From the NCBI GenBank assembly GCA_015680905.1, contig CM027380.1, positions 52,593,001-52,657,000 on the forward strand: a stretch of 64,000 bases of DNA, in the 5' to 3' direction. Each line of letters begins with the position of its first letter. The first letter of the stretch is position 1. Under the pieces are notes generated by a model that was not told where the DNA came from, searched no databases, and saw only the letters and a program-made list of their open reading frames with translations. The position numbers and the translations under genes are program-made. This document shows, piece by piece, positions 12,801-64,000 of this stretch. The DNA is from Coptis chinensis (lineage: Eukaryota; Streptophyta; Magnoliopsida; Ranunculales; Ranunculaceae).

Positions 12801-13776
12801 TAATATTACTTTTATTGTACCCAAGAAGGAGAACAAAATTTTCCCTTGCTATTGATGGCACGACTATGAAATTGATAAGCAATTGATAGCTTTGGTTTTG
12901 GGTTGCCATTACGACCACTATGCACCGTGGGGATATATGACGGATAACTTCATACCTATATGAATATGCTTATTTCCATGAGTATTATGGGGGAGGGTGT
13001 TTAAATATCATGGACAAAGACCAATATAACATCACATACGAGTAGCCTATCGCTGAATGTAGAGCGCAACCATGTTGTTCATCATGATGAACATTCTAGG
13101 GAACGGCGGTTTACTTACGCCAATAATATTGGTGGCGTTTTCCTTGCTTTAGGCGAGGGGCGTCGTCGGTATGACATTCCCGAGTTTTTAGTTGCTACTC
13201 TGAGGCGAGGCCATACCTTGAGGCATAAGTACCTTCTTATGCCTGTCTTGGTTTGCCGCATTATCGCGGCTTGCCTACCCATAATGCGTAAGCGATTACC
13301 GCAGTTGGGAAAGGGTCGAAATCATGAGACCCACCAATCGATAATGGTAAAGATCATTCGAGCCATGACTTGGCGGGATGGCAGAATGCAACCACATTTG
13401 GTTGCCCCTTACACCCCATCGGACCAAATAACACTAGAGAGGTTAGCACTAGTTGATGATACGCGGCCGGGCGTGGCAAGTTATTATGGCATGGCGGGGA
13501 TCGCGAAAAGAACCTCATATAGAAGAGGAGGATGGCGAGTAGATCTTTGGGGTGCGGGTAAGTTTTTAGTTAAGTTAGTGTGCGCTTAAGTCCCAAGCAA
13601 TTTCATTACATTAACCCCATAATGGGTGGAACTCTTATAGAGTTGCGTCGGTTTTATTACTATATTAGTATGTTTTAACTTTGTTTTTGCGGATGTTCAC
13701 GAATTTCCACGGCGCTTCAATGGTATTTTTCCTACCCTCTTTATTTAAATGCTTTGAGGACAAAGCATGCTTCTTG

Positions 13777-13785
13777 TTTGGGGGG
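13777..13785 (+). other. Internal polypurine-tract-like motif
   Basis: TTTGAGGACAAAGC...TTTGGGGGG resembles the terminal polypurine tract context (GAGGACAAGC...TTTGGGGGTGG) 1.6 kb further on. The outer element has the same motif at about 21341. Function is inferred only from this resemblance. Confidence 0.35.
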
Positions 13786-15360
13786 CATAGAAACACGTGT
13801 AATTAAGACATCTGTTAGGATATATATATGTATAATATGCACTTGTTTTCTACTTAAAATTTCAAAAATTCAAAAATATAAATAAAAAAAAGTATGCTAT
13901 ACACTTAGGAATATTGGTATTGTTTTCTTTTCTATGCTCTTAACAATTTAGAAGTCTCACATAGCTTTTGCATCGGAATAATTGTTAGAAACTTAGGTTA
14001 ATATGTAGGTAATAATCTTTGCATCTATCTATAAATTTATTACATGAGTATCTATGATTGTTAGCGATAAGTTCTGAAATCTAGGCTAGAGTACTTACTT
14101 ATTCTACAAATCCTGTGAGAATATAGCCTAAAAAGCCTATATATGAAGCGAAACATTTGAGAAATGACACAAGGGAGAAGTAAAATCGGATAGAGATATC
14201 ACACGTCCACTTGCTTGATCACTATGCCATATCTAGCGAGAATTTAGGCCCTTTTTGGATCGATATAGCGAGAAATTCAAACCTATGAATTATGTTCCGC
14301 TAAATAAGCCCCTCACGAGCCTTCCTTTAGCCTTCCATAAACCACAATTCCTTTACCCTGTTACAAAAAACAAAAACAAAAAAAAAAAAAATCAACCTAC
14401 CCAATTTAGAATAAGTCCGAGAATAGAATGATGAAGAAAGAAGAAGAGAAAAAAACTGTGTAAAAAAAAAAATTAGTTAGTTGCTTGAGGAATTAAAGAA
14501 AAGAAGTTTCCATCCAAAGAAAAAAAAAAAATAGAAATAAATAAAACTCCAAAAATAGAATAAAGGAGTCAAAAGCCAAAGAAAAAAGAAAAAAAAAAAA
14601 TATGGCTAAGGATGGAAACAAAGTATAGAAGCAAAAGAAAATAACAAGGTTTTCTCTAAGTTACATAATATGAAGACTCTATTATCTCGGACTTGTCCTT
14701 TTGAATATCCATTTCCTTCCTTCTTAAACCATCTCCTAATCCCATGACACCTAATAAAGACCTCTAGCTCGATTAGGAATAGGTTAGTGTGATAGTAAAG
14801 TGGCAGATGTGTTTGATCGACTCGGCTTCCTTGTTGTCATTGAGATTGTAAGGTAAAGTGTGCCCACCGCACCTTTGGAGCAATGAAAACTTGAGTGGAA
14901 AAATCAGAGTGGTTTTGTCTTGACATTTATGTGAGGACCTACTTAAGGGCGCTTAATCCGAGTTTTCAGAAACGGACACTGCTATTACATTTCATAGTAT
15001 TACTCATTGTTATATGTTTATTTTAGATGATTGATTATTATGCATATATTAGCTTAGGGTTACATTTGGGTTATTCTTATGTATTTGCTAGTGAGATGTA
15101 TAGATAGTTGAGACATGAATGAGAAAACAATAGTTTTATTTCTTAGTCGTTGTAGTATAGATGAAGTTTGTGAGTACCTTCACTGGAAAACTCTCACGAG
15201 GCTATAACTTCGTCCACTAGGGAATTCCTAGTGGTTTAAGGCCTTGTTGCATATGGTCAATGCAATCGCACTCAGTGAAAGCGAGAATAGTTAGAACTCC
15301 ATTTTTTTTGGTCACTTATTCTAATTTCTCATCTTTGCTTGAGGACAAGCAAAATCTTGT

Positions 15361-15373
15361 TTTGGGGGTGGTT
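15361..15373 (+). other. Polypurine tract next to the 3' LTR (nested element)
   Basis: TTTGGGGGTGGTT directly precedes the TGATAAG start of the 3' LTR, where plus-strand priming is expected. Confidence 0.6.
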
Positions 15374-16729
15374 TGATAAGAGCCCAAAACTGTAGTTTTA
15401 ACCCCTTAATAATCATCTTGTTAGACCAATTATGTGAATAATAAGTAAGAGTTAATACTGATTACGTGTTTTATGCATTTCAGGGCTTCAAAGTCCATTA
15501 TATGAATGTATTGCCACTTTAGCGAGATAAAGGAGCAAACAGTCGGTGAGAACTTCGAATGCCATATCTTTGGACTCAGACACCGAATTGGGCCTACCTT
15601 ATGTCAAAACGACCAGCTCGGAAAGAGCTTTCCAATGGTCCAAGCCTTGACCCAATCAGAGGAGCAGAAGTGGACGAAAAGTCTGTGGAAGCCAACTGCA
15701 GCTGAAGAGGCCTTTTGGACCCGAAAGTATTATGTTTTGGGCGATTTCTCGGCCCAAAACATGGCTCCAAGCCCATGCACGATTTTTGGATCTGGATGTA
15801 TAAAACAAAAGCTTCACTCTTTGTTAATGGTAGCTAGTTAGACCTAAATTAATATATAGAATTCTAGATCTAGTTTTATTAATAGATTAAGTTTTAGTTC
15901 CATTTCAATTCTGTTTTTAGATTAAATCTTTGAATGATTGTTCTTGATTGATTAGATTAATAAAATAGTTAGTTGTCAATTTGAATTTTGTCATTTCCAT
16001 TCTAGATCTAAATTAAATTCTTGTTATCATTCCATTCGGTCATTAAATTAGATTCATTATTGTTTAATTAAGTAAAATTCAATTTCTTACATTATGTTTA
16101 GTTTAGATTTAATGGGAAATGTTAGGTTGATGACTCAAGGCTAAAACCTCCATTAGAGGGGTTGATGAAGCCTTGATGAAAACTTAGTGGTTAGTATAGA
16201 ATTGGTTGTAGAATCTATTCCACTCTAGAAGGTCGTGTTTAGCCATGAGAATGGGTGGGCGACCTCACATGCTAGTTAGTATCCGGTAGAAATGCCATGA
16301 ACACTAGGGATTAGAACTTCGAAATTCTCGCCCGTAGAAGCGTGAGAATTGAGATACAACCTTCTACGCTAGGTTGTTAAGTTGGATTCGAGGTGAATTC
16401 AATTCCCCTCTATTTCTTTATCTGAATTCAAACTATCGTATTTCCATAGCATTAAGTAGCTTAAATTAAAATAATCAATTTCATATTGCATCGTAGTATA
16501 ATCCCCCCCAAATGTAAATCTCTCATTAGATTTAAGACTGATTACTTAGACTTAGAAAACAATCCGTGCTAGGGAACTAGGAGTGGAACGAACTTCCTAC
16601 TCCACTTAGTGCAATCGCATCGAGAGTAGAAAACTTTTGATAAACGCTCTAGCAAATAGCAGTTTAGTTTACTTACGTTGTGAATTCATCGTTCATTTCG
16701 TAGGTAAACTATACATTTTACGTTTATCA
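15374..16729 (+). repeat. 3' LTR of the nested element
   Basis: Begins TGATAAGAG after the polypurine tract and ends TTTATCA. It matches 2043-3384 throughout, with a run of about 200 identical bases at 15962-16157. Confidence 0.88.
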
Positions 16730-22916: not shown

Positions 22917-24113
22917 TGATAAGAGACCAAAACTGTAATTTTAACCCCTTAACAATAATACTTTTAGACCAATTATGTGAGTAATAAATAAGAGTTAATG
23001 CTGATTACGTGCTTTTATGTATTTCAGGCATTGAAGTCTATTTTGTGTAGAAATGTGCCACTTTGGCGATATAAAGGAGCAAGGGTTGGTTGCTAAGAAG
23101 TTTTGTAAATAAAGGCCAAGATTCAAGGAGAAAAAGCTTTTGTAAATCCCGGTTAGAAGCTGAGAAGTCAGAGTCAATTCGGGCAGAAACAACACACAAA
23201 AGTCAGCAGAATTTCCGAAGACTGTATCTTTGGACTCAAGCCTCGGAATTGGGTCTACCTTATGTCAAAACGATCGGAGCGGAAAGAGATTTCCAATGGT
23301 TTAAGCCTTGACCCAATCAGAAGAGTAAAAGTAGACGAAAAGCTTGATAAAGTCAGATCCAGCTGAAAAGGGCCCTGTGGACTGAAGAGATTGGGTTTTG
23401 GGCTCGATTTTCCGGCTCAAAACATGGCTCCTCAGCCCATGCACGAAAAAGTGGATATGGTCTCCTCCATTTGTATGGAGAAGACTTAGCTCTTAAGCAT
23501 ATCTAGATCTAGATTAGAAAATTAGGTTAGACTCCATTAATTAGTTCCAATAACTTGTTTTAGATCTAGTTTTTACATTCAATGAATTAGTTTTAGAACA
23601 AAGTAGATTATTATTTAGAATCACTATTAGTTTTATAATAAAGTATTAGTTTTCATTTCAATTTAGTTATTGATTAAATTCTTATTTAGTTTTAGTTGTT
23701 TTAAATTCATAAATTAGGTTGTCTTCATTTTGATTCTTAGACTATTGTTAAAATTAGATTTATAAAGTTTAAATTAATTATTAAATTATGACTTGTTATT
23801 ATTGTTCTTGTGTTGGGAATGATAGTATAAAGATATTAGGCTAAAACCTCCATTAGAGGAGGTTAAGAAAGTAATGTGAGGATGATTGCTTGTTAGAATA
23901 GTTGTTATTTAGAATAGAAATTTCACATCTCATTACTCTCACCATTGTTCCTTGTGTTTGTTCAATTGAATTTGTTTAAGTCTTGAGAGTTAAGAGTGGA
24001 ACGATTCCGTACTTGATATATTGCATGAATATATATGTAAGAGTAGAAAATAAAATATTGATAACTGTAAGAATTAAGTTAGAGTAATCTAGTTTAGTTT
24101 TTACGGGTTATCA
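22917..24113 (+). repeat. 3' LTR of the outer Athila-like element
   Basis: 1197 bp, TGATAAGAGACC...GGGTTATCA. From 23090 on it aligns with positions 1-1023. The target duplication cannot be tested because the left end is outside the window. Confidence 0.87.
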
Positions 24114-40837: not shown

Positions 40838-42478
40838 TAACTTCTTCTATTATACTTAGTTTGTTTATATTAGGATTTTATTCCCGTCTTTCTTTTGTCT
40901 TTGCATCCGTTTGATTTAATTATTGGTTTCATGCATTCTTATCGATATTTGATTATTTTATGTTGCATCTTTATATGTTGTGCATGTCACAGAGCATGCA
41001 TGAGTTGTGTTAAATGTAACACGCTTGTAAGATTTTTTTTGTTTTTTTTGTCATCGATTTGTTATATGTTGTATGACGGATGATGCATCGTATATATTAT
41101 GCCATGTGTATATATTATCTTATGTAGTATACAATGTTTTTACAAAACTATCCCATGTCTTATGTCTTCCATTACATTGTTCACAACAAATATCTTATAT
41201 CAGGAACTGAGAAAGGAAAAATCTAGAGGGAAAGACAAAGCAAATGAGCAAGAGGAAGAGCAAGAGGTAGTGAGGAACAAAAAGAGAAATGTAACTCCAT
41301 TCCGGAGTGGAATGTCATCTTTGGTAAAGCTTATGGGTGAACACTCTTTTAAAAGTGCAATCAAAGAGTGTCACTTGGAAGACATGAAGAAAACCTTCCC
41401 ACTGTTCAAATGTTGCTATGATTTGAAGCTGTCGAGAAGATGGTTTCGAAGTCTAGTCAAGTCATCAAGACTATCATTGAAGCATTCAAGGCAGAGGAGG
41501 GGTGTTTCATAATACACGGAGTTAGTGTGCAACTAACTCCAAAGGATGTGAGCCTGACTTTTGGGCTTCCAAAGTAGGGCGAGAATGTTGTTGAAGTAGT
41601 AAGTAAACCAGACAAGAAGTTGTTGAGTGAGGATGCACTTGATTTTAAAGTGAAATACTTCAATGCTAGCATCATCTTACTTCTGAAATTCGGAGTGCAC
41701 TAGAAGGAGTTGTGAAGAAAGAAGATAAGGAGTCAATATCCGACTTTGGCAAGTTGATGGTGTTGTTTATGCTCAACTCCGTTATCACACCCCGAATTTC
41801 GACAAAATTCGGAAAAACATTATTTGTCCCCGACTCTTCGATTTCCGAGGTGTGACGCACTCTCCACTCCCAAAAACCCATAAACAGTTTAACAATATGC
41901 GGATAATTAAAACCAATAAAATTTTTAACTTAAACAACAGTCATCTTCATTACCAAAAACAATTTACAAATGAAAATGCAAATAACCTTATCTCAACTGA
42001 AAATCTATATCACCTCAAAGGGAAAACAAAACTTATCCCGAGATGCAATGCTAACGCAAAACCACAAGCAAAGAACCAATCTTCTTCATCACTAAACCTC
42101 GTCAAGACTTATCAACTATGTTCATTTATCGAGCACACCCGATAAGCAAACATGCAAATCGGGTCAACATTATAAACAATCTTTGGTGTGAGTAGCCCTA
42201 AAGTACAACATATAATTATACATATATATATATACAATCCATACGGCAGTTAGTTCCTCCACCGGAGCTTTTTAACTTTCAACGACTAACATAACAACCT
42301 TTTAGTACAATAATTAAAGGCAGGTAGTTCCTCCATCGAGGTTTTAACTTCCAACAACTAATACGACATTCTTAACTACAATAAGTAAGGCAGATAGTTC
42401 CTTCATCGAGGCCTTTAACTTCCCACTAACCACACAACAAACTATACATCTAATAAAATAAGTGTAGTTCCTCCATCG
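40838..42478. repeat. Large direct repeat, copy 1 (pairs with 62396-64000)
   Basis: From TAACTTCTTCT onward the sequence matches 62396 to the window end, through noncoding leader, pseudogene exon, solo-LTR insertion point and the first part of that LTR. The left flanks differ: LINE side here, Athila-like integrase side at 62395. The copies differ mainly by small changes at CAG, CTG and CCG sites. Confidence 0.9.
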
Positions 42479-42500
42479 AGGTTTTAGGTTCTAACTAAAC
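42245..42500. repeat. Tandem repeat of about 70 bp in the solo LTR, four units
   Basis: Each unit contains GTAGTTCCTCCATCGAGG followed by TTTAACTTCCAACAACTAA-like sequence. The same array is visible at 63770-64000 in the second copy and runs off the window. Confidence 0.75.
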
Positions 42501-42792
42501 AAATAACCAACCAAACATATTACCATAATTAGATTATTTCAGCTTTTTTTGCGTGTCCCTAAAATTCACGTCAGATCTATGTCTTACCTAGTTTCCCGGC
42601 TACCACAATCGCTACCCAACTAGAACATGTACATCCACATGCCTCCCCTTATATAATGTACCCACTCGTGCGTAACCACCACGGCGGGATGCCGCGACAC
42701 CAGATAAATCCTCACATGGAAGCCATTATATAAGTAATGCCCCTATTCGCATAAAATATCGCGTCCTCGCTCCAATATTTATAACGGAATAA

Positions 42793-42960
42793 TCAAGCCA
42801 CTATTCGGCTACGATTGCCCAACACATGGGTCAATCAACATCTCATATATATACAACATCTTATATATCAACATCTTATATATCAAGCCACTATTCGGCT
42901 ACGATTGCCCAACACATGGGTCAATCAACATCTCATATATATACAACATCTTATATATCA
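42793..42960. repeat. 90-bp tandem duplication in the solo LTR
   Basis: TCAAGCCACTATTCGGCTAC recurs at 42793 and 42883, and the copies are essentially identical to their ends (ATACAACATCTTATATATCA). Confidence 0.85.
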
Positions 42961-43686
42961 AATACGCCCACACAGGGCAGATCACATGAGTTGTGGTAGT
43001 CAGGTTCTAGGATTTTCGTTACGTAATTTATTCAGGTGTCATACATTAATGACTCATAATAATTCCACTATATCACGTGCAGGTCAATTGCCTTATTGCA
43101 CTAAGCCACAATATATAGAAATATCTCAATTATATCTCATAGTCACTTTCATTCTTTCACGTGCCAATATATTATTGCACTACGCCACAATCCCGTGGGT
43201 AAATATTCACCAATACTATATTAGCATCTCTCATATAAAATAATGGAGTGTATATACATTTCTCCAAGATATTGCATTAATATATATATCCCAGCATATT
43301 ATCTCATGTCACAATGCTTCAACGTATCACATACATTTTTATTATAACGTATTAGGAATATAATATCTCATAATATCTCAATATCGTCACGTGTCAAAAA
43401 TACACAACATCAAGGTCAAATTTTTCTTAGATAATGACCACCAAATTATACAAGCTTCCACAGCATTTTATTACTATATGTGTCCATATAATATACACAT
43501 AAACGAAGACAAATAAACAAATCACCGATCCACAATCAAAGCCCAATATATATATGCTTTACACACTACTCACGTCAAATCTAAATTAGATAATGACAAA
43601 CCAAGTTATACAATCTCAACAATATTTTATTACTATATTTATCCATATAATCAAATATGTGAAAAACTAGAAAAGTCAATATTCCC

Positions 43687-43965
43687 AGTCAATGGTCAAA
43701 GTCAACGGTCAACAGTCAAAGTCAACGGTCTACGGTCAAAGTCAACGGTCAAAGGTCAACACATCCTGGTCAAGGTCAAACTCAACACATCATGGTCAAG
43801 GTCAAACTCAACATGTCATGGTCAAAGTCAAAGTCAACATGTCTTGGTCAAAGTCAAACTGTCATCGTCAAAGTCAACAGGTCCTGGTCAAAGTCAAACT
43901 GTCATCGTCAAAGTCAAACTGTCGTTTCCGTGTTCGACAGGTTCATGGTCATAGCCATGGTTCAT
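43687..43965. promoter_or_regulatory. Dense GTCAA (W-box core) array in the solo LTR
   Basis: I count about 26 GTCAA pentamers in 280 bp, mostly as GTCAAAGTCAAC or GGTCAA. Read on the minus strand these are TTGAC, the core bound by plant WRKY factors. The repeat is decayed and tandem. The open frame it makes (KVNGQQSKSTVYGQSQ...) is a by-product of its periodicity. A regulatory role is inferred. Confidence 0.45.
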
Positions 43966-44019
43966 GGCTAAGGTCAAAGGTGCATGGCTCATGGGCTCCT
44001 GACCACGGTCCTGGTTCGG

Positions 44020-44410
44020 ACCCAACTGGCCAAGCCCAAACCTTAGAACCCGAAAGTCTAAAAGTCCACTTATTTATTTTACCTAACCCAATTAGATCTA
44101 TTTTAAGTCCAATGGACTGGTCCATGCAATATTAGATACGGGCCCAAAAACTTTAGACTGAACTGGCCCAAAACTAATTGGAGAAGGCCCAAACAAAACT
44201 TAATTAAACTGGTCCAAAAATACAAATGAAACGGGCCCATAGACTAATATTAGAACTGGTCCCAAACTTAATTAAATCGGGCCCAAACAAAACAATCTAA
44301 TCCGGCCCAAAACAACTTAACTAAAAACCGGCCCAACCAAACTAAAATAGAATCGGGCCCAACAACAAAACAAGGTCGGCCCAAGGAAACCGACCCAGGC
44401 CCAATTCGGT
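44020..44410. promoter_or_regulatory. Cluster of GGCCCA motifs in the solo LTR
   Basis: About a dozen copies of GGCCCA, many as CGGCCCAAAAC or GGGCCCA, occur in 400 bp. TGGGCC/GGCCCA is the site II/TCP-type element of many plant promoters. They may also be remnants of a short tandem repeat. Confidence 0.35.
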
Positions 44411-45879
44411 CTACAGCAGGTCGTCTTCTCCAAATTTCTCTCCCTCCAGCCACTTTCCAGCCACCAGCCACCACCCACCGGCGCTCAAAACCAAACCTAA
44501 CTAACTCGGTTTTGTACCCCCCGAAAACCCCCATCTTTTTCTACCCTCAAACTCGAGTTCCTCACCTCACATCAGCGCCAGTGCGAATTTCAGCCCAAAT
44601 CGCGCCGCCATTGATGCTCCTCCGGAGCTTCAACAGCCCACCCTCACTACACCACTCAATCCTACAACCACCAACCCATAACACAAACAAATCAGTTCAC
44701 AACAACGAAAAATCCAAACAAAACCCAACCCACAAACAGCCCAACCGTCGGCGCCATTAGCGCCTCCAACCAAGCTTTGGCAGCACCTCTAATCTCCATC
44801 TCGACCACAGTATTCCATCCCCCACTAACCTCCAACAATACAAACCCACAACAACATAAAAACGAGTTCAAAACAGCCATAGACAGGACGCCATTGATGC
44901 TCTGTCGAAGCTTCGACAGTTTACCCAACTCACAAAGTTTGGACAGTTTAATACAAATCCGAATTTAATAAAATTTAATAACACAAAAAAAGCACTAATT
45001 CCGGCCGGGATAATGAATAGTATAAAACGAAACAATATACACCGATGTGTGTAACTACAAATCCGTTGAAATAGCAAAATAGCTACTCACTCAGATGAGC
45101 GACTCGACGAATCCTCCTAGCCGATCGATTCGTCATGGGCCTCCGCCCAAAGAAACCAGCCTCTCTCTCCATTTCCATTTCATTATTTTATTATTCTCTA
45201 AACCCTATTTTCCAGAACAATGTGTTTATATACTTTGGGTCCCAACCAAGCCTCAACACTGCACTTCGAGCCCAAAACCAGTCCACGTGATCTAAATCCA
45301 ATCCAACCGATTTTTAAATAAATAAATTTAATTAATTAATAAATAGATAAAAACGTATTTTAAAAATACGGACGTTACATCCGTCTTCTTCACAAAATCA
45401 AATTTTAGTCTAGCTTCAACATACATGTAATACGTCTATAGTTTCGAAGAAATGAATAAGGTGTTGTGGGCAACAACAATCTCCTCCCACATGATGAAGC
45501 AGATTATAAAACATAGTGTTAAAAGCCCAGTGAGCACTGCTACATGTGTGGTACAACTACTTGTAAGTATTTAACCCACTTTAGTGGTATTATAGGTTTC
45601 ATTATTGAGTGATTAAATAATAACTGTGTTTTTTTTATTTCATTTTTTTCAATGATAGTAATCGGTTCTCATGAAAGCATCTGATGGACTTCACCTCACC
45701 GGTCAAGGATTATGAAACGCAATACCCTAGGTGCGCAAAGTGGAGTCTGAGTGTGCTCAATCACAAGTTCCCACAAGTAGTAGGTGAGGGGATGGACAAA
45801 AAGAGTAAAACAAAGGTAAGTTTTGTATTTGATAAGTTAGCACCTAAAGATGAGCATGTAAGTTGATAACTTGAATTGT

Positions 45880-46215
45880 AAATTGTAAGTCAGTTTTCTA
45901 ACCCACACACTATATAAGGGATAAAGAGAGAGAGTGAAATAACTTTTTCTATGTGAGAAAGTTAGAGTAAACTTTTCTAGGGTTTCCTTGGGAGAGAACA
46001 AAAGAGAGATTTGTGAGAGCATTTTTTGTGAGTGAGAGAGATCATTCCAAGTGAGTGAAGTGAGAGCTCCTCTTTGTAATCCTCTATCTTGTTCATCTAG
46101 TAAATCATTGATCTTGCTGTGTGGATGTAGGCACATTGCCGAACCACGATTAATCCTCCTCTTGTGTGAGTGGGTTCTTTACATAGTCTCTACACTAGTT
46201 TAAGCTTATTTGTTG
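45880..46215 (+). repeat. Possible partial Ty1/copia-like LTR in an intron
   Basis: CACTATATAAGGGATAAAG is followed by AG-rich sequence, then CATTGCCGAACCACGATTAA and TTGTGTGAGTGGGTTC. This succession resembles the TATA, R and U5 portion of copia LTRs. Clear ends and a target duplication were not found. Confidence 0.25.
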
Positions 46216-47305
46216 ATATTGTTGATTGGGTTTAATGCTTAAGTTATTTGTTGGAACTTTTGTCTTGTGTGAAAGATCACTCCTTTGGTGGTTGATCTAG
46301 TTGTAGTTGCACGTTTATGCGATCAGTCGCAACATAAATTATTATACCAATAATATGACATTTATACCAATAATATGGCATATATCAATAAAATTATGGA
46401 TTATATGTTAGTCATGATAAATAATGGGATGTAGTTGTGGAGTATGTAATTTGAACTTCTTAATTGAATTTAAGTGTCCTTTCAGGCTAAAATTCCCTTG
46501 AAAATTAGTAAGGAGCTTAGAGATATCACCGATGATGAACAAATCCTTCTAACCCGATTGTATGAACTGAAAGAGACTGAGACTGCATTAGAGATATGGA
46601 GGAGAAAACTGGTAAAGCCCCGAGCTGAGAATGTGCGACTTTGGAAAAATTACCTTGAGCTGATTGAAACAAAATGGAGCAAGGAATATGATTTTGGTCA
46701 AACAGGTGGGCACATGGAAGAGGGAGGTTTGATGGATGATGATAGCCCTGGCACGGATACTCATGATGAATTCTCCGGTACAAACTCCACACCGATGGAA
46801 GGATCCACCCAAATTGTTGTTAATTTGCAACAAAATGATAGTGACCCAATGATGGTAGAGCCAGAAATTGAAGAGGAGAGGAAAAAAGATTATTTGGGTG
46901 AAACAGGTGCAAATATGGGAGATGGAGGCTTGATGGATCATGACATCCCCAACTTCGATACTCCTGCAGATGAATCTCGTGTTAAATGTCTCAGTACAGA
47001 CTCGATTCCAGTGGAAGTACCCATCGAATGGATTATCTGCAACAAGGAGGTGCCTCGGTGATAGAAGAACCACAACTTCAAGAGGAGGGGCGACAACATC
47101 TTCAAGAAGCAGAAGGTCACCTGATTACGATGGAAGAACCCCTTATTCGGGAGGAAATACAGAAGCGAAAAGTCACAATTAGCCCATCTACAATGGTGAA
47201 AAGAGTGAAGGGGGAGGAGAGAAAGCAAGAAAGATAAGAGAAAAATGATAAATACTTTTTGTTATATACAAGAAAGCGAAAAGGAGACCATAGATAGAGA
47301 AGAAG

Positions 47306-47308
47306 AAG
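47306..47308. repeat. Left 3-bp target duplication (AAG) of CACTA element B
   Basis: AAG precedes CACTACACC, and the same AAG follows GGTGTAGTG at 53216-53218. Confidence 0.8.
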
Positions 47309-48228
47309 CACTACACCATAACAGGCTATTTGCAACGGCAAAAAACCGTTGCGAATAATTTTCGCAACGCTTTTTAAGCGTTGCAAATAGGGCGTCGGTA
47401 AAGTGTTGGAAATATTTGCAACGGTTTTTTGCTGTTGCAAACCAAATTTTCCAACGGTTATTAACCGTTGCAAAGTGAAAATTACTAACGGTTAAAAAGC
47501 GTTGCAAAGCAAATTTTCCAACGGTTATTAACCGTTGCAGAGTGACAATTACTAACGGTTAAAAAGCGTTGCGTAATTTGATTTGTAACGATTATTGATT
47601 GATGCTTTAATATTTATTTTTTGCTTTGCAACGGTTTACAACCGTTACTAATATGTTGATATGATAAAAAAAATTATTTTAATTTTTTTCCTGCCCTTAA
47701 CCTGCACCTCCTGATTTCATATAGAAGCAAATAAAATTACAAATGCTTTTTCATACCATTTGACAAATAAATAAACACAAGCAAACGCTTTGAAAAAAAA
47801 AATATTATATTCATTTAACCATATATATAATTTCAAAAGAGTTTTGAGGGTTACAAATTCAAATTTAATAAGGGTTACAAATTTCTATCACGATTTTCCA
47901 AGCAATCCGAATCTTCAAAAATGCAATAAGAAGCATTGAAGCATTAGTGACAATGGCTTCACTCAATATAAATCCTAGTGCCGCTCCACAAAGCCCATCT
48001 AATTCCAAAAAATCACAAAACAAATAATGAACTCGGAAAAACAATCATATTAATTAAATTCATGCAATAAATTAAATACTTGACCCCAAGATAAAGCATT
48101 TGTTGTCTACTCCCATATCTCAACGACGTAAACAATGATTACATAAAATCGGTGCAAAAAAAATACCTTATATAGTAACTTGACGAGTTGAAAATTGAGA
48201 AAATAGAGAGTGGAGTTTAAATTTTTAC

Positions 48229-48365
48229 CTTGATGAGGAGCTTGAGGTAAGTATGACTCATCAGATTGGGAAGCAATTATTTTGGCCTTCTTCCAAAAGC
48301 CCCACATGTCGGTAATATCGGTTGATCCAATAGATGTGTTCTCGATGGAGACCAGCAATCCTTCT
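48229..48365 (-). pseudogene. Captured exon of an unidentified host gene
   Basis: The exon is bounded on the minus strand by TTTTTTAG and a donor CATCAAG before GTAAAAAT, 137 bp without a stop. It reads EGLLVSIENTSIGSTDITDM then WGFWKKAKIIASQSDESYLP and QAPHQ. The composition looks like conserved protein. I cannot name the family. The intact frame hints at recent capture. Confidence 0.4.
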
Positions 48366-49299
48366 CTAAAAAAGGAAATTCATCTTAGATAATGTTTGTG
48401 ACTTGTGAGAAAAAAAAAAAAAGTTGTTAGTACCTTAATTAGTTCGGCAATCATGACGTACTAAGCCAGCGCATTTAAAGTCCTCAGAATTACATTAGTA
48501 AAACTCCTCACTCGATCACCACTAAGGTAAGAGTATAATAGTCATATTAGACAGAGGTAGAGTTTTCTAAGAGTCTCATGGACAATCCTAGTGAATCCTT
48601 AAACAAACAACATAAACGAAGGGACACCGAGGAGCCTCCCGAAATGACACTAAGCGCTAGGTCTAGGAAATCAGCCAAGTGCCAAACACCAAACTCTAAG
48701 CGAAGCACTAATTAAGGTGGTGAATTGAACGCATCGAGAGGATCGAGCTTCTCTCGATAAGAAAGTTACTTCCAACGATCGATCAATGAAAATACTTAAG
48801 GGCTTAATTGTGCACATAAAACACATACACGTGACGCACACACGCGGCATTAAGCCGGCAATCACAGTTCATAGGAACTCGTTATTAATTAGAGTAGAAC
48901 TCACATTCTAGGAGATCTTTTTCTAGTGGATTATGACCTGATTGGCTTAGTTATAAGATAGAGTACGAAAAGACCACAAAGAAGTATGTTTGCCACCTAA
49001 ATTCTATATCTCGGCAAGTAGTAGTTTTCACCGGATAGGCATTTATGGTTCTCAAGTAGTTTCTATCATGCTACTAACACCACTAGTGCAAGAGAATAGG
49101 CATTTACAAAATCAAAAGTTATATATAGTTATATATTCAAGAAAGGTGGTTGGCCTATCTTTTTTGGGATCTTTGTGATTCTATGAAACTAGTTATATAT
49201 ATTCAAGAATGATAAACAACAAAAACTTCGAAAGTGCACAAAACCGAAAAATAAAACAGATTAAGATACTAGCAGTTCTAATGAGTGGCAATACTCATA

Positions 49300-50505
49300 T
49301 ATTCTACCTTTCTTGTAATTATGTCATCAATCTTGAGGATCATCCTCGCGACTCTGTTGCCAATGTGATAGATACTGGTGCTCACAAGCAAATGGGCTGA
49401 ACCACATTTTCCTCCAAGATATTTGTAATCTGCCCTTTCCTCACATTGATCCCAAAGATTGATCTCACCTGTGCATGTCGGTTCCGAGCTCATCCACGAT
49501 AGCTATTGGGTTCAAACCTGCATTCTCAGCAAGAGTATATGGAATAACTTCAAGAGCCTCCATAAAATGACCGCACACAATAACTTTCCATCCCATGCAA
49601 GACCTTAGCCCAAGCACCAAGTCGCCTCGACAATTTCGATTTCAAGCACCACCACCAAAGAATTAGAAACTTCTTGGTCACCAAACATCGGATCACACAC
49701 AAAGCATCATGTAGACTCCTCTCAGCCTCATCCGGAACCAACCGATTCGACCCACTAACAAGCACCGTCGTTGTCCTTCCCATATCCTTAATACCGGTAA
49801 TCTTCACAATCTTCCCCATCACCAAGAGAAACCTCTTCCACACAATCAAAGACGACCCATCTTCTCCTCGCGAAAATGTTCAATATTCGCAATAGCAAAG
49901 CAATTCAGAGTCTTGGTAATAAACTCAATAGCATCCCTCTCCACATCCTTAACCACCAAAATCTTAGCCTTAGAAAGATAATGCAAAGACAGATCCGAAA
50001 CGCGATCCCTCAAAATACTCTTCAATCAACAAAACATTACACCCCGTCGCCTTTAATCTTCTTAATCATCCCCAAAATATAATTCCTCTCCTCCTTCAAA
50101 AATCCTATCCATTTGCGTATAATCCTAAAACCACAATACTGTTCAATATCGGTCTTGGGTGGCTAAATCTGAAACGAATCACGGCAATCTTAGCATTCTC
50201 AACACGAAGTCGCCCACCAGCAGAATGACTAACCTTCTTATAAAACCAACCCTTTAACCAACTCCGATCGTCACAGCGGTCCCACCAAGTTTCTTAACAA
50301 TCTTAACATCTCTCAAATCAACTAAATCAACTTTCACATTATCCACCACAGATAAAACAACATCAACAGCTAACGGAGCAAGTAAAGTTGAATACTGACT
50401 AACAACTTTACTATTCAAACTAGTACTAGCACTCTTAACTAACGAATCGCGATCCGATAGCTCAACCGGTACAGCCATAGCAGTTAAAATATCAACAGTT
50501 GAGGT
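49300..50505 (-). pseudogene. CCT4: Captured chaperonin CCT subunit delta (CCT4) segment
   Basis: Starting near 50505 the minus strand reads [40 protein letters not shown] and [15 protein letters not shown]. Later come LHYLSKAKILVVKDVERDAI, EFITKTLNC, IVKITGIKDMGRTTTVLV, EAERSLHDALCVIRCLV, EALEVIPYTLAENAGLNPIA and finally RMILKIDDIIT near 49310. These are colinear with plant TCP-1 delta from roughly residue 175 to near the C-terminus. CCT4 is a subunit of the cytosolic CCT/TRiC ring that folds actin and tubulin. No intron is visible in the copied span. Many stops and frameshifts and a missing N-terminal third make it a non-functional transduplicate. The identification itself is very secure. 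Confidence 0.88.
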
Positions 50506-50559
50506 TGAGGTTAGACTTACATTGGGAAGTTGAGGTTAGATTCAAATGATAAACAAAAT

Positions 50560-51065
50560 AAATGGTCACATTCTCCTTTTATGTTGGGCTGCAATTCACT
50601 TTTTTGCTATTTTGGCAGATCGAATTTTTTGGGAACCAAGTTTGTGATATATGATAGCCAGCCTCCTCATGCTGGAGCCACGGTAGCCAAAAGTCGCTCT
50701 AATAGGCTGGTGGGTTTGAAACAAGTCTCTCTAGAGAGTACTGGCTGGTAACTATCCAAGAGCTCGACACGTATGAGTTAAACGCCTTAGGTTCCAGGTG
50801 AGAATTTGTGCAAGTAGATGTATATGGATTCACATGAGAGCTTACTCGTGTCTATAAATGTGTTAAGTCTGTATGACTTTGTTAATATATGTAATTTCCT
50901 TTATGCTTATGTCTTGAATAACAACTAATCCCAATAGTTTAATTATTATGTGGAGCAAGTAGGGGCCCTAGAAGAATGCAGTGTACCATGAATGCGATCC
51001 CCGCCTCTGCAATTGAAGCGAAGGAATGGCTCCCCACACGCATCGAATTTCTACCCAACAACCTT
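50560..51065 (+). pseudogene. Captured Tubby-like protein (TLP) gene fragment with intron
   Basis: The first exon part (about 50610-50811) reads GRSNFLGTKFVIYDSQPPHA, GATVAKSRSNRLVGLKQVS and GNYP, and after a shift LDTYELNALGSR. An intron begins at GTGAGAAT and ends near 50967. The next exon reads GPRRMQCTMNAIPASAIEAK then EWLPTRIEF. This is the middle of the C-terminal tub domain of plant Tubby-like F-box proteins, phosphoinositide-binding membrane-tethered regulators. The split between LGSR and GPRRM keeps the intron, so the piece came from genomic DNA. It lies head to head with the CCT4 piece, starting about 60 bp away. Incomplete and shifted at least once. Confidence 0.85.
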
Positions 51066-53218
51066 GGATTCATTACCACCAATCCCATTTTTCAGATCTA
51101 AATCAACTCGTGTAGATCCTAGCTAACTTTTTCTTGTATATCGAGACATAACTAACTTTTTGAGTCTAACTATGGTCAGATAATTGGGTAACACTTGTTC
51201 ATTTTCGTGAATCAGGTAAAGAGTATGAACAATTATGCCGATTTTAAGAGCTAAAAACATAAAATGAAGATGGAGCTCAGGTACTCTTTGACGGTCATAA
51301 TGAGTATGTTACTATCTAAGTCTTCTTTGCAAATTGGAAGAAAGTGAATTGAACTTTACAAATCAACATCACCGACTTAATATTGGTATAGTCGGTCCCC
51401 GGAAGCATTCTTTGAAAAGGGGTATGCAAAACTCATTAGTACACACAAAAAATTAATAATGCACCAACTAATTGTACCTTTCCACCCTTTAAAAGCTCAA
51501 CAAAGGAGAGAACAACACGTCTTTGCTTATGGTGCTCGATATCCGACTTATATAAAAGCAAAGTTTCACTTGTATCAATAAACCCAGGAACAAAATGGAA
51601 TATACATTTCAGCCATTCCCGAGCATTGAATTTGAATAATGATCTCTACTTAATCGTGAATCTGCCGCCGCTTTAAGTGTAATACTAACTACGATCTAAG
51701 TTTCAGATATACCTCCAGCCAGACATCCCAAAGAAGCAAGTCCAAGGGCTTCTAGAATACCAATTAGCACAAAAGAAGATTTGGGAAGGGATAGCATTTC
51801 CTTCGTCCACGAGTCCAAAGACAATATCTTGCTTAACAAGATGGAAAAGTATATACCAACATACCTGCATATAAGAAGTAAAACATTAGTGAAAGGGCAA
51901 AGGCAACATTTATCTTAACCAACATTCCAATTCCCACCTTGATACAAATACACTTTGTACAATCTAGTTGTCTATGAAACCAAATACACTCAAACTTAAT
52001 TTTCACAACCAAAGAAAAATACCCAAGTCCCAAAATACACTCAAACTTAATTTTCACAATCTAGTTGTCATACCGGCCCCGCTTTTGATCGATGCCAAAA
52101 TCTCAAAGAACCATAGCTTTCTTAAGATCCATCGCCATAATAACCAACAAGATTCTTGGCACATTTCTCAAATTTGAAATTCTAGAAGTAGAAATCAAAC
52201 CCCCAAAAGTGCAATCAAAGCAACAAAGATCATAGATGAATTCAGCCCTAACCCCTCTTCAACTCAAAACTATTTTTACCCTAAAAACATAATAGGAAGA
52301 TGGGCACCACCGGGATTTGGGGTTAGATTTTTTCTGTTACTATTTAGGAGAGAAATCAGAGAATTTGAGAGAGGGAGGAAGGTGCAAATGGCTACAACAA
52401 GTGAGTGAGAGCTTGAACAATAAAAATGAACAAATAAACTAACCGAAAAGGTCTTACCTTGAGAACTGAAAAGTTAGGAAGAAAGGACGAGCTTGAGCAA
52501 ATTTGAACAAATCCACTATTTTTCGAGGATCCGAAAGTGCAAGTAAAGCAAGGATAAGGTGCGGTCGAACTTTCATCTCTTTCAATCCATACCGATGAGC
52601 ATAATCATACCACCGACTTCCTCCAAAATTAACCAAAACAGTTTATTGAATGGCCAACATAGAGTAAAACCAAGAAACCCCATTTCTCATATACTAAACC
52701 CCTAACCCTAGGTTTAGAAATTATAAAATAGAACTAAAAGGGGTGGTAAAATTGCATATTGTGGGCTTCCAAACCCCGTCTCTCTTTCTCCATTTCATCG
52801 CGTGCTCTATAATCTATATGGTGGTTCCGTACACAAGTGTGTTTTTCTTTCAAGAATGGTCTAATGGAACTGTAGAATGAAGGCTTCTCTTTGTTGAAAA
52901 GGAAATAAAGATAAGAAACCCTAACCTAACCCAAATGGGTGAGAGAGAGAAAGAGAGGTTTTCTATTTTGACATACCGACGACGACGATTTTTTGTTTCT
53001 CTATTTTTGAAATTTGAAGTTGTTTTGGTTTTGGATTTGTAACACTTCTCCAACGCTTTTAAGCCGTTAGCAATTAATTCGAAATTCACTCAAATAAACC
53101 AACGCTTTTACAACATTGCCAACGCTTTATTTAGCGTTGGCAATTTACTAACGGTAAATAAAGCGTTGCAAAGCAAAAAAGGTGCGTGTTGCAAATATCC
53201 TATTATGGTGTAGTGAAG

Positions 53219-53693
53219 CAAGGGAGAAAACCAAATCTGTAATTAATGAAGGCACGATGCACAACCCACACTAATGTAGTATATATCTACTCATATGAAA
53301 CTAAGATGGGGAAGTGTAATTGCCTTGTGTGGAAATGCTCGAACTTGGTAGAAGTTGGAATATGGGGTTAGATAAGGATGGATATTTGATCTGTATGTGG
53401 GTGGTTAGTGTGATCTTGGGGGTGTTCTAACATCGGTCTAACGTAGTAGAGCATTGTCCAATGCATTGATGCATTTATCAATGGTTGGATGGAAGAATAA
53501 CTAGGAAAACTGAAATAGTAGACCCCTTGAGCATGTTAAGTTTTATGTTTTTTATTTCCTTGAGCGTGGTATATCTAGGAAAACTACAAAATGAGCCTGC
53601 CTTAGAAGTTTAAGGTGTCTCATGACAGATTTGTTAGTCTAGTTGTCCTTGTATGTTGAAGCTTAAGCTTAAGTATCTTTGTAGGCAACACAT
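53219..53693. other. Flank between CACTA element B and the third LTR element, no gene seen
   Basis: AT-rich. It is probably 3' flank of the plant-mobile-domain-like pseudogene. No coding or repeat structure is recognised. Confidence 0.3.
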
Positions 53694-62395: not shown

Positions 62396-64000
62396 TAACT
62401 TCTTCTATTATACTTAGTTTGTTTATATTAGGATTTTATTCCCGTCTTTCTTTTGTCTTTGCATCCGTTTGATTTAATTATTGGTTTCATGCATTCTTAT
62501 CGATATTTGATTATTTTATGTTGCATCTTTATATGTTGTGCATGTCCACGAGCATGCATGAGTTGTGTTAAATGTAACTGCGCTTGTAAGATTTTTTGTT
62601 TTTGTCATCGATTTGTTATATGTTGTATGGCCGGATGATGCATCGTATATATTATGCCATGTGTATATATTATCTTATGTAGTATACAATGTTTTTACAA
62701 AACTATCCATGTCTTATGTCTTCCATTACATTGTTCTGACAAATATCTTATATCGAGGGCTGAGAAAGGAAAAATCTAGAGGGAAAGACAAAGCAAATGA
62801 GCAAAGAGGAAGAGCAAAAAGAGGTAGTGAGGAACAAAAAGAAATGTAACTCCATTCCGGTGGAATGTCATCTTTAGTAAAGCTTATGGGTGAACACTCT
62901 TTTAAAAGTGCAATCAAAAGAGTGTCACTTGGAAGACATGAAGAAAACCTTCCCCTTGTTCAAATGTTGCTATGATTTGGCTGTCAGAAGATGGTTTCAA
63001 GTCTAGTCAAGTCATCAAGACTATCATTGAAGCATTCAAAGGGGAGGAGGGGGGTGTTTCATAATACGGAGTTAGTGTGCAACTAACTCCAAAGGATGAT
63101 GAGCGACTTTTGGGCTTCCAAAGTAGGGCGAGAATGTTGTTGAAGTAGTAAGTAAACCGCAACAAAGTTGTTGAGTGAGGATGCACTTGATTTTAAAGTG
63201 AAATACTTCAATGCTAGCATCATCTTATACGAAATTAGAGTGCACTAGAAGGAGTTGTGAAGAAAGAAGATAAGGAGTCAATATCCGACTTTGGCAAGTT
63301 GATGGTGTTGTTTATGCTCAACTCCGTTATCCAATTTCGACAAAATTAGGAAAAACATTATTTGTCCCGACTCTTGATTTCGAGGTGTGGCACTCCACTC
63401 CCAAAACCCATAAACAGTTTAACAATATGCGGATAATTAAAACCAATAAAATTTTTTAGCTTAAACAACAGTCATCTTCATTACCAAAAACAATTTACAA
63501 ATGAAAATGCAAATAACCTTATCTCGGTGAAAATCTATATCACCTCGAGGAAAACAAAACTTATCTGAGGATGCAATGCTAATGAAACCCTGCAAACAAC
63601 CAATCTTCTTCATCACTAAACACAGCCAAGACTTATCAACTATGTTCATTTAATGAGCACACCCGATAAGCAAACATGCAAATCGGGTCAGCATTATAAA
63701 CAATGCTGGTGTGAGTAGCCCTAAAGTACAACATATAATTATACATATATATACACAATCCATAATGGCGAGTTAGTTCCTCCACCGGTATTTTAACTTT
63801 CAACGACTAACATAACAACCTTTAGTACAATAATTAAGGCAGGTAGTTCCTCCACTGAGGCGCCTTAACTTCCAACAACTAATACGACATTCTTAACTAC
63901 AATAAGTAAGGCAGATAGTTCCTTCACTGAGGCGCCTTAACTTCCCACTAACCACACAACAAACTATACATCTAATAAATAAGGCAGGTAGTTCCTCCAT
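62396..64000. repeat. Large direct repeat, copy 2 (pairs with 40838-42478)
   Basis: It contains the leader, the Lys/Glu-rich first block of the plant-mobile-domain-like pseudogene (about 62755-63330), the solo-LTR insertion from about 63331, and the LTR's 70-bp repeat array to the window end. It runs off the window. Confidence 0.9.
62755..63330 (+). pseudogene. Second copy of the plant-mobile-domain-like pseudogene, 5' part
   Basis: Corresponds to 41203-41782. A Lys/Glu-rich start is followed by a MGEHSFKSAIK region and the VSVQLTPKD region, ending at the same solo-LTR insertion point. Because both copies share the insertion, the duplication came after it. It has frame breaks, many at CAG/CTG positions that differ from copy 1. 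Confidence 0.55.

Follow-up and report, generated by a model that had tools for sequence, protein, structure and literature searches.

The window, that is, the whole 64,000-nucleotide stretch of DNA analysed here, contains a 5,907-bp non-autonomous CACTA element at 47309-53215. This element is very probably a Pack-CACTA that acquired pieces of a CRT-like transporter (CLT) gene, a Tubby-like gene and a CCT4 gene in that order, with each capture cutting into its predecessor. An earlier note had proposed CACTA ends at 47309 and 53215 with an AAG duplication, and both were confirmed. The first bases at 47309 are CACTACACCATAACAGGCTATTTGCAAC and the reverse complement read from 53215 is CACTACACCATAATAGGATATTTGCAAC; the terminal inverted repeats are 28 bp long with 2 mismatches and begin with CACTA, which places the element among the CACTA (En/Spm) elements. 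The same AAG lies on either side, at 47306-47308 and 53216-53218. The CACTA 5' end and a left arm with subterminal repeats occupy 47309-48457 (plus strand), and the right arm with the CACTA 3' end occupies 52067-53215 (plus strand).

The genome searched comprised 935.6 Mb in 116 contigs, and the window sits on C4. When the 5' end was used as query, the best 40 of 949 candidates were scored and almost all matched across the full 601 bases; for the 3' end, the best 40 of 930 candidates were scored. The 949 and 930 first-look candidates indicate that the ends belong to a large family, of which the cargo-bearing copies are a small branch. In the search with the CCT4 piece (22/22 candidates scored), 13 of the 22 rows represented 12 element copies, and the remaining rows were one gene on C8, two partial pieces (C1 and C2), five 47-bp matches lying on the Tubby side of the junction and one 35-bp match. 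The Tubby-side search (31/31 scored) yielded 16 full-length copies, 12 with CCT4 and 4 without it. The copy at C5:78.27 Mb matched the first 577 bases of this query, seven rows without Tubby matched from 51137 to the query end, an eighth started there but was split, and the others started later. Among the CCT4 copies, the first 57 bases of the 5' end were unmatched in that at C5:38.3 Mb, and the left-hand match of that at C6:89.7 Mb began only at 48514. In the copy at C9:18.4 Mb, the CCT4 piece is split by approximately 1.8 kb of other DNA (C9:18418637-18420455).

The search for further copies with the same ends and cargo, which the earlier note had recommended, showed that ends and cargo recur together. 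The 5' end, the cargo and the 3' end were found jointly elsewhere, so that the note's own ground for refutation, ends that do not recur together, did not arise. Target-site duplications of 3 bp were perfect in nine of the ten copies with both ends read, one of the nine being a tandem duplicate of the window copy. The duplications were AAG in the window and at C4:52.66 Mb, TGT at C6:17.7 Mb, CTA at C7:37.3 Mb, CAA at C8:91.9 Mb, ACT at C9:18.4 Mb and ACA at C9:35.0 Mb; for two composite copies, taken at their outer ends, they were AAG (C3:63.8 Mb) and AAC (C6:67.2 Mb). The copy at C5:30.5 Mb, with both ends read, had no target duplication, and the outer right end was absent from it as well. No transposase match was obtained among 17 element frames searched against Pfam (7 + 10). 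PF02992, searched as the TNP2-type transposase expected for CACTA elements, abounds in the genome, and no member was linked to the element family among the best 150 of 2,715 candidates scored, the nearest listed match being approximately 22 kb from an element copy. The element thus carries captured host gene DNA inside CACTA ends and has no transposase of its own among the 17 frames compared with Pfam, as a Pack-CACTA does, and it would presumably be mobilised by a transposase produced elsewhere.

The CCT4 (TCP-1 delta) fragment lies at 49210-50498 on the minus strand, antisense to the element. Three of its five minus-strand pieces matched Cpn60_TCP1 (PF00118), with E values of 2.4e-10, 1e-9 and 2.1e-7, the last below the Pfam cut-off. 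The fragment is 94% identical to C8:2246993-2248281, which belongs to an intact CCT4 gene, the donor (C8:2247089-2248690). The donor is a single open frame of 631 codons, or 534 codons from the methionine of MATAAV, and has no intron; residues 16-535 of the 535 searched align with TCP-1 delta up to its last residue (E 5e-217). The captured piece, earlier estimated at about 360 codons, corresponds to the last ~398 of the 534 codons together with ~93 bp of 3' flank, and the start of the gene is absent. Outside the element copies, the CCT4 piece was found only at the donor gene, as partial matches at broken loci on C1 and C2 and as one 35-bp match; its occurrence beyond CACTA ends in other copies, named beforehand as grounds for refutation, was not encountered. 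The broken partial CCT4 copies on C2 and C1 both match the captured stretch 50007-50487. They were considered as intron-bearing parents and rejected, being broken partial copies.

The earlier observation that the CCT4 piece shows no intron stands, but its evidential value is lost, since the donor gene is itself intronless; the absent intron therefore says nothing on capture through RNA. A reverse-transcribed, processed copy as the source of the piece would agree with an intronless fragment whose beginning lies within the coding sequence and which takes in the 3' end. However, the intronless donor removes the main support for such a source, the match reaches ~93 bp past the stop, no poly(A) tract is present at the junction and the Tubby-like piece has its intron. 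We consider a processed-copy origin extremely improbable and, given the intronless donor, discarded capture of CCT4 by way of RNA.

The Tubby-like fragment at 50514-51127 (plus strand) has kept its intron and has lost its left part where CCT4 now sits. It matched PF01167 with an E value of 1.7e-6, plus a second match of 0.0049 below the cut-off. The exon matches, at 50610-50808 and 50961-51110, are separated in the element and in a Tubby-like gene on C2 as well, which upholds the proposal that this piece was captured from DNA. The gene on C2, at 71.158 Mb, is the nearest Tubby-like place (identity 77% across 202 bp and 71% across 151 bp; both retain the intron); at such identities it is counted as a relative and not as an established donor. 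CCT4 on the minus strand and Tubby-like on the plus strand do stand head to head; they are separated as DNA by 15 bp (50498 to 50514), not by the approximately 60 bp given previously.

The third host gene, previously unnamed, was identified as a CRT-like (CLT) transporter, so that the element holds pieces of at least three genes, as had been proposed. The CLT fragment spans 51128-52035 on the minus strand, with its clearest exon within 51699-51914 (minus strand); the match of 51696-51914 to the Pfam CRT-like family is weak (E 0.0012, short of the cut-off). For this family a single place was reported, with one match from 28 candidates and above the cut-off: a CLT gene at C9:69.998 Mb, which is 49% identical to the element exon over 39 residues. 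A further CLT stretch, to the right of the exon, is present in all four Tubby-less copies read and is collinear with the same C9 gene (identity 67% across 24 residues, all in a single frame; for the one copy aligned at the DNA level, 80% across 81 bases). The C9 gene, too, is counted as a relative and not as an established donor. A Pfam match was absent for two frames adjoining the CLT piece in a Tubby-less copy, and one of these frames presumably resembles a CLT exon.

A fourth captured stretch, block W (48455-49197, plus strand), is non-coding as far as seen. It is 92.5% identical to C2:23157445-23158179, the only match outside cargo copies among the best 40 of 295 candidates. Within the same best 40 of 295, nine places outside cargo copies stop exactly at query position 598, or window 48457, which marks the break point of the left arm. 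Next to the place on C2 that matches block W is a 216-codon open frame for which Pfam gave no hit.

The order of the captures follows from copies with different cargo. Over approximately 4.2 kb, the four CCT4-less Tubby copies resemble one another, and they have no match to the window element left of 50514. When the one at C9:61.47 Mb was compared with the Tubby-like gene on C2, the match reached one more upstream exon; at the junction, the remaining three are almost identical to it in sequence. In the CCT4 copies, this upstream Tubby exon is cut and CCT4 stands in its place. Because of the extra upstream exon, the CCT4-less form cannot be derived from the CCT4-bearing form. Furthermore, alignments of the Tubby-bearing copies with the window pass uninterrupted over the place of the further CLT stretch, which these copies do not contain. 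Since this stretch is present in the four Tubby-less copies read, the Tubby-bearing copies cannot be the older form. The extra CLT stretch and the extra Tubby exon together give the order CLT, Tubby-like, CCT4. The element began with a piece of the CLT gene; part of this piece gave way to a Tubby-like piece, and part of the latter in turn to CCT4, which came along with block W and with a left arm unlike the previous one.

Both borders of the CCT4 piece carry short templated fillers. At the left junction (49198-49209), TAGTTATATATTCAAGAA of 49126-49143 recurs. Nine of the 11 aligned copies have it exactly, the window copy has it with two additional bases, and in the copy at C8:91.9 Mb it is cut off. 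The filler at the CCT4/Tubby junction (50499-50513) is TTGAGGTTGAGGTTA, and GTTGAGGTTAGA recurs at 50504-50515 and 50529-50540. The right filler is present in 11/11 aligned CCT4 copies and the left filler in 10/11. The simplest reading of these common junctions would be that CCT4 was captured once. Fillers of this kind look like template-copying end joining.

The copies at C3:63.8, C5:30.5 and C6:67.2 Mb have common DNA past the right end but different left flanks. This DNA is a repeat (11 long matches) and runs on through the site in all seven other copies read. From an empty site in the right flank of the copy at C7:88.3 Mb we expected an outer right end with AAC next to it. Such an end, with AAC and 2 mismatches, does lie at C6:67227795, and its strand is the predicted one. 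The C6 composite is a 9,544-bp unit (C6:67227810-67237353). The C3 composite (C3:63811256-63820783) has the same outer end and AAG at both ends; 667 of its bases are covered by the repeat match only. The extra DNA, in which the outer right end lies beyond the inner one, amounts to approximately 3.6 kb and is 94.7% identical over 2.9 kb; two frames within it gave no Pfam match. The composite units jumped from the left end to the second, outer right end. In the published Pack-CACTA model, as described in section 9 of PMC8903248 and in passages of PMC13317346, two external ends are used as one element, and composites with two external ends are what this model predicts. Mobilisation of neighbouring insertions as a unit is seen in the C3 and C6 composites, and the window copy moved with its inner ends.

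We lean slightly towards captures by way of paired elements moving as one. Two neighbouring elements would have moved as one unit and lost DNA around their inner ends, and the joining would have been done by repair that copied the short fillers. No donor element with the left arm, block W and a right end of its own was seen among the best 40 of 295 candidates. The locus at which the composites formed was not found among 31 places within 3 mismatches, of which the best match, C2:71.40 Mb, was read and had an unrelated flank. Alternatively, the captures may have arisen by gap repair after excision, in which a broken end copied ectopic DNA through template switching and no paired insertions took part; CCT4 would have been copied first, then a nearby stretch and then a sister element. 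Template switching would give the fillers copied from nearby sequence at both CCT4 junctions, and a single paired insertion would not join block W and CCT4, which match different chromosomes (C2 and C8). Nevertheless, CCT4 copies and CCT4-less Tubby copies have different left arms, which the fusion of two elements explains more simply, and composites with two right ends do occur in the family. We rate direct gap repair as a real possibility, a little short of even, and keep paired elements as the working reading.

The divergence of approximately 6% looks like sequencing error for the most part rather than age. Changed instances in the copies, where one site is counted across copies, were 178/264 for CAG, 116/176 for CTG and 109/407 for CG, compared with 11/297 for CAT, 16/363 for CTT, 3/198 for AAG and 0/66 for GATC. 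Because such counts take one site in many copies, a count by site was added for the CCT4 piece in 11 copies: all 40 CAG/CTG sites vary, with up to seven outcomes per site, and the varying sites are 4/38 for CAT/ATG, 8/51 for AAG/CTT and 20/65 for CAA/TTG. In the eight full copies, the substitutions per site per copy were 0.12 at CAG/CTG, 0.08 at CG, 0.022 at other C/G and 0.016 at A/T, and insertions/deletions were enriched about four- to tenfold at the motifs. Changes that recur at particular motifs, together with indels and substitutions of the middle base, are what base-calling error at methylated cytosines would be expected to produce.

For differences far from motifs, we relied only on the comparison that also used the motifs of the donor gene. 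The between-copy values of 0.8-1.6% and 1.5% were set aside as inflated, since a miscalled site hides the original motif. Against the donor, the 11 copies had substitutions at 0-9 of 774-792 sites away from CG/CHG, at 6-22 of 251-266 sites within two bases of motifs and at 26-61 of 210-222 sites inside them. Summed over the same copies, 392 gap columns comprised 154 away from motifs, 90 near them and 148 inside, and the three majority-shared changes away from motifs are gaps in single-base runs. Each of four other repeat pairs of the window had an excess inside motifs, but one pair (13557-15538) had no excess at neighbouring bases.

If the differences between copies were real mutations, the family would date back several million years and the CCT4 pieces would have decayed. 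Copy pairs do differ by 2.7-5.1% substitutions plus gaps, their frames are broken, and gap columns keep less strictly to motifs than substitutions do (154/392 away). However, 40/40 CAG/CTG sites vary against 4/38 CAT/ATG sites, the excess extends to indels and to bases adjoining the motifs, and A>G and T>C changes, which deamination does not produce, are seen at the middle base of CAG/CTG. An origin in real mutation is thus quite improbable, and the motif-context test led us to abandon dates based on raw divergence. If base-calling error is the cause, the CCT4 frameshifts are not evidence of decay, and the copies are methylated while the donor is not. We infer that the element copies are methylated and silent and that most of their apparent decay is sequencing error. 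Codon positions in the CCT4 piece changed about equally (0.036, 0.043 and 0.036), so that these counts, which errors dominate, gave no sign of selection. In this assembly, where many differences fall at CG and CAG/CTG, it is unsafe to date repeats by divergence or to call pseudogenes within them; if the errors mark methylation, they also provide a crude map of silenced DNA.

The possibility that CCT4 antisense or small RNA made by the element regulates the parental gene was weighed with the same data. Approximately 1.2 kb is near-identical to CCT4 outside CG/CHG motifs and antisense to the element, which speaks for such regulation. However, the copies show the dense CG/CAG/CTG error pattern of methylated DNA, whereas the donor reads cleanly, free of this pattern and intact over 534 codons, with no sign of methylation in trans. 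Judged from these sequence features, regulation of the parental gene would be very improbable.

Gene capture by a CACTA element is a known process, of which this family is a good example. In the descriptions of Pack-CACTA and Pack-TYPE elements (Catoni et al. 2019) given in PMC8903248 and PMC13317346, non-autonomous CACTA ends, captured genic DNA, layered gains and joint mobilisation of neighbours are features in common with the element reported here. Compared with those descriptions, each later capture here trimmed the existing cargo on one side, composites were transposed whole with the inner right end intact, and the element is much longer than the PIF and Mariner examples of PMC8903248 section 9. 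Tgm-Express1 of soybean, as presented in PMC1947982, was studied as one insertion in F3H with chimeric transcripts, whereas the present family, described at the DNA level, involves three genes plus a non-coding block and has 12 CCT4 copies. Pack-MULEs and gene-capturing Helitrons, according to PMC13317346, are also mobile elements with gene fragments, but they belong to other superfamilies; CACTA ends and target duplications of 3 bp set the present element apart.

CACTA gene acquisition has so far been deduced largely from finished products; here, one genome holds the donor gene, successive intermediates, common junctions with filler and transposed two-ended composites. The chances appear evenly balanced that the family is a frozen series of capture stages, running from a single cargo through cargo overwritten once or twice, with composites whose inner right end is still intact before trimming. 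If it is such a series, one-sided overwriting would be a rule set by the end that is replaced, and cargo would turn over instead of accumulating.

The window copy also lies in a tandem duplication. The block 42484-53693 (plus strand), with the element inside, is duplicated approximately 21.5 kb downstream and matches C4:52657010-52668196 at 93.8%; the window end, 62396-64000, matches 40838-42476. Since it has the same flanks as the window copy, the copy at C4:52.66 Mb is a tandem duplicate and no second insertion. Over the duplication as a whole (40838-53693; 62396-64000 on to C4:52668196), the right flank is 99.4% identical in 479 aligned bases and the left flank 93%. A direct repeat of approximately 1 kb was also seen in the window, 1-1023 being 94% identical to 23091-24113, 23 kb apart.
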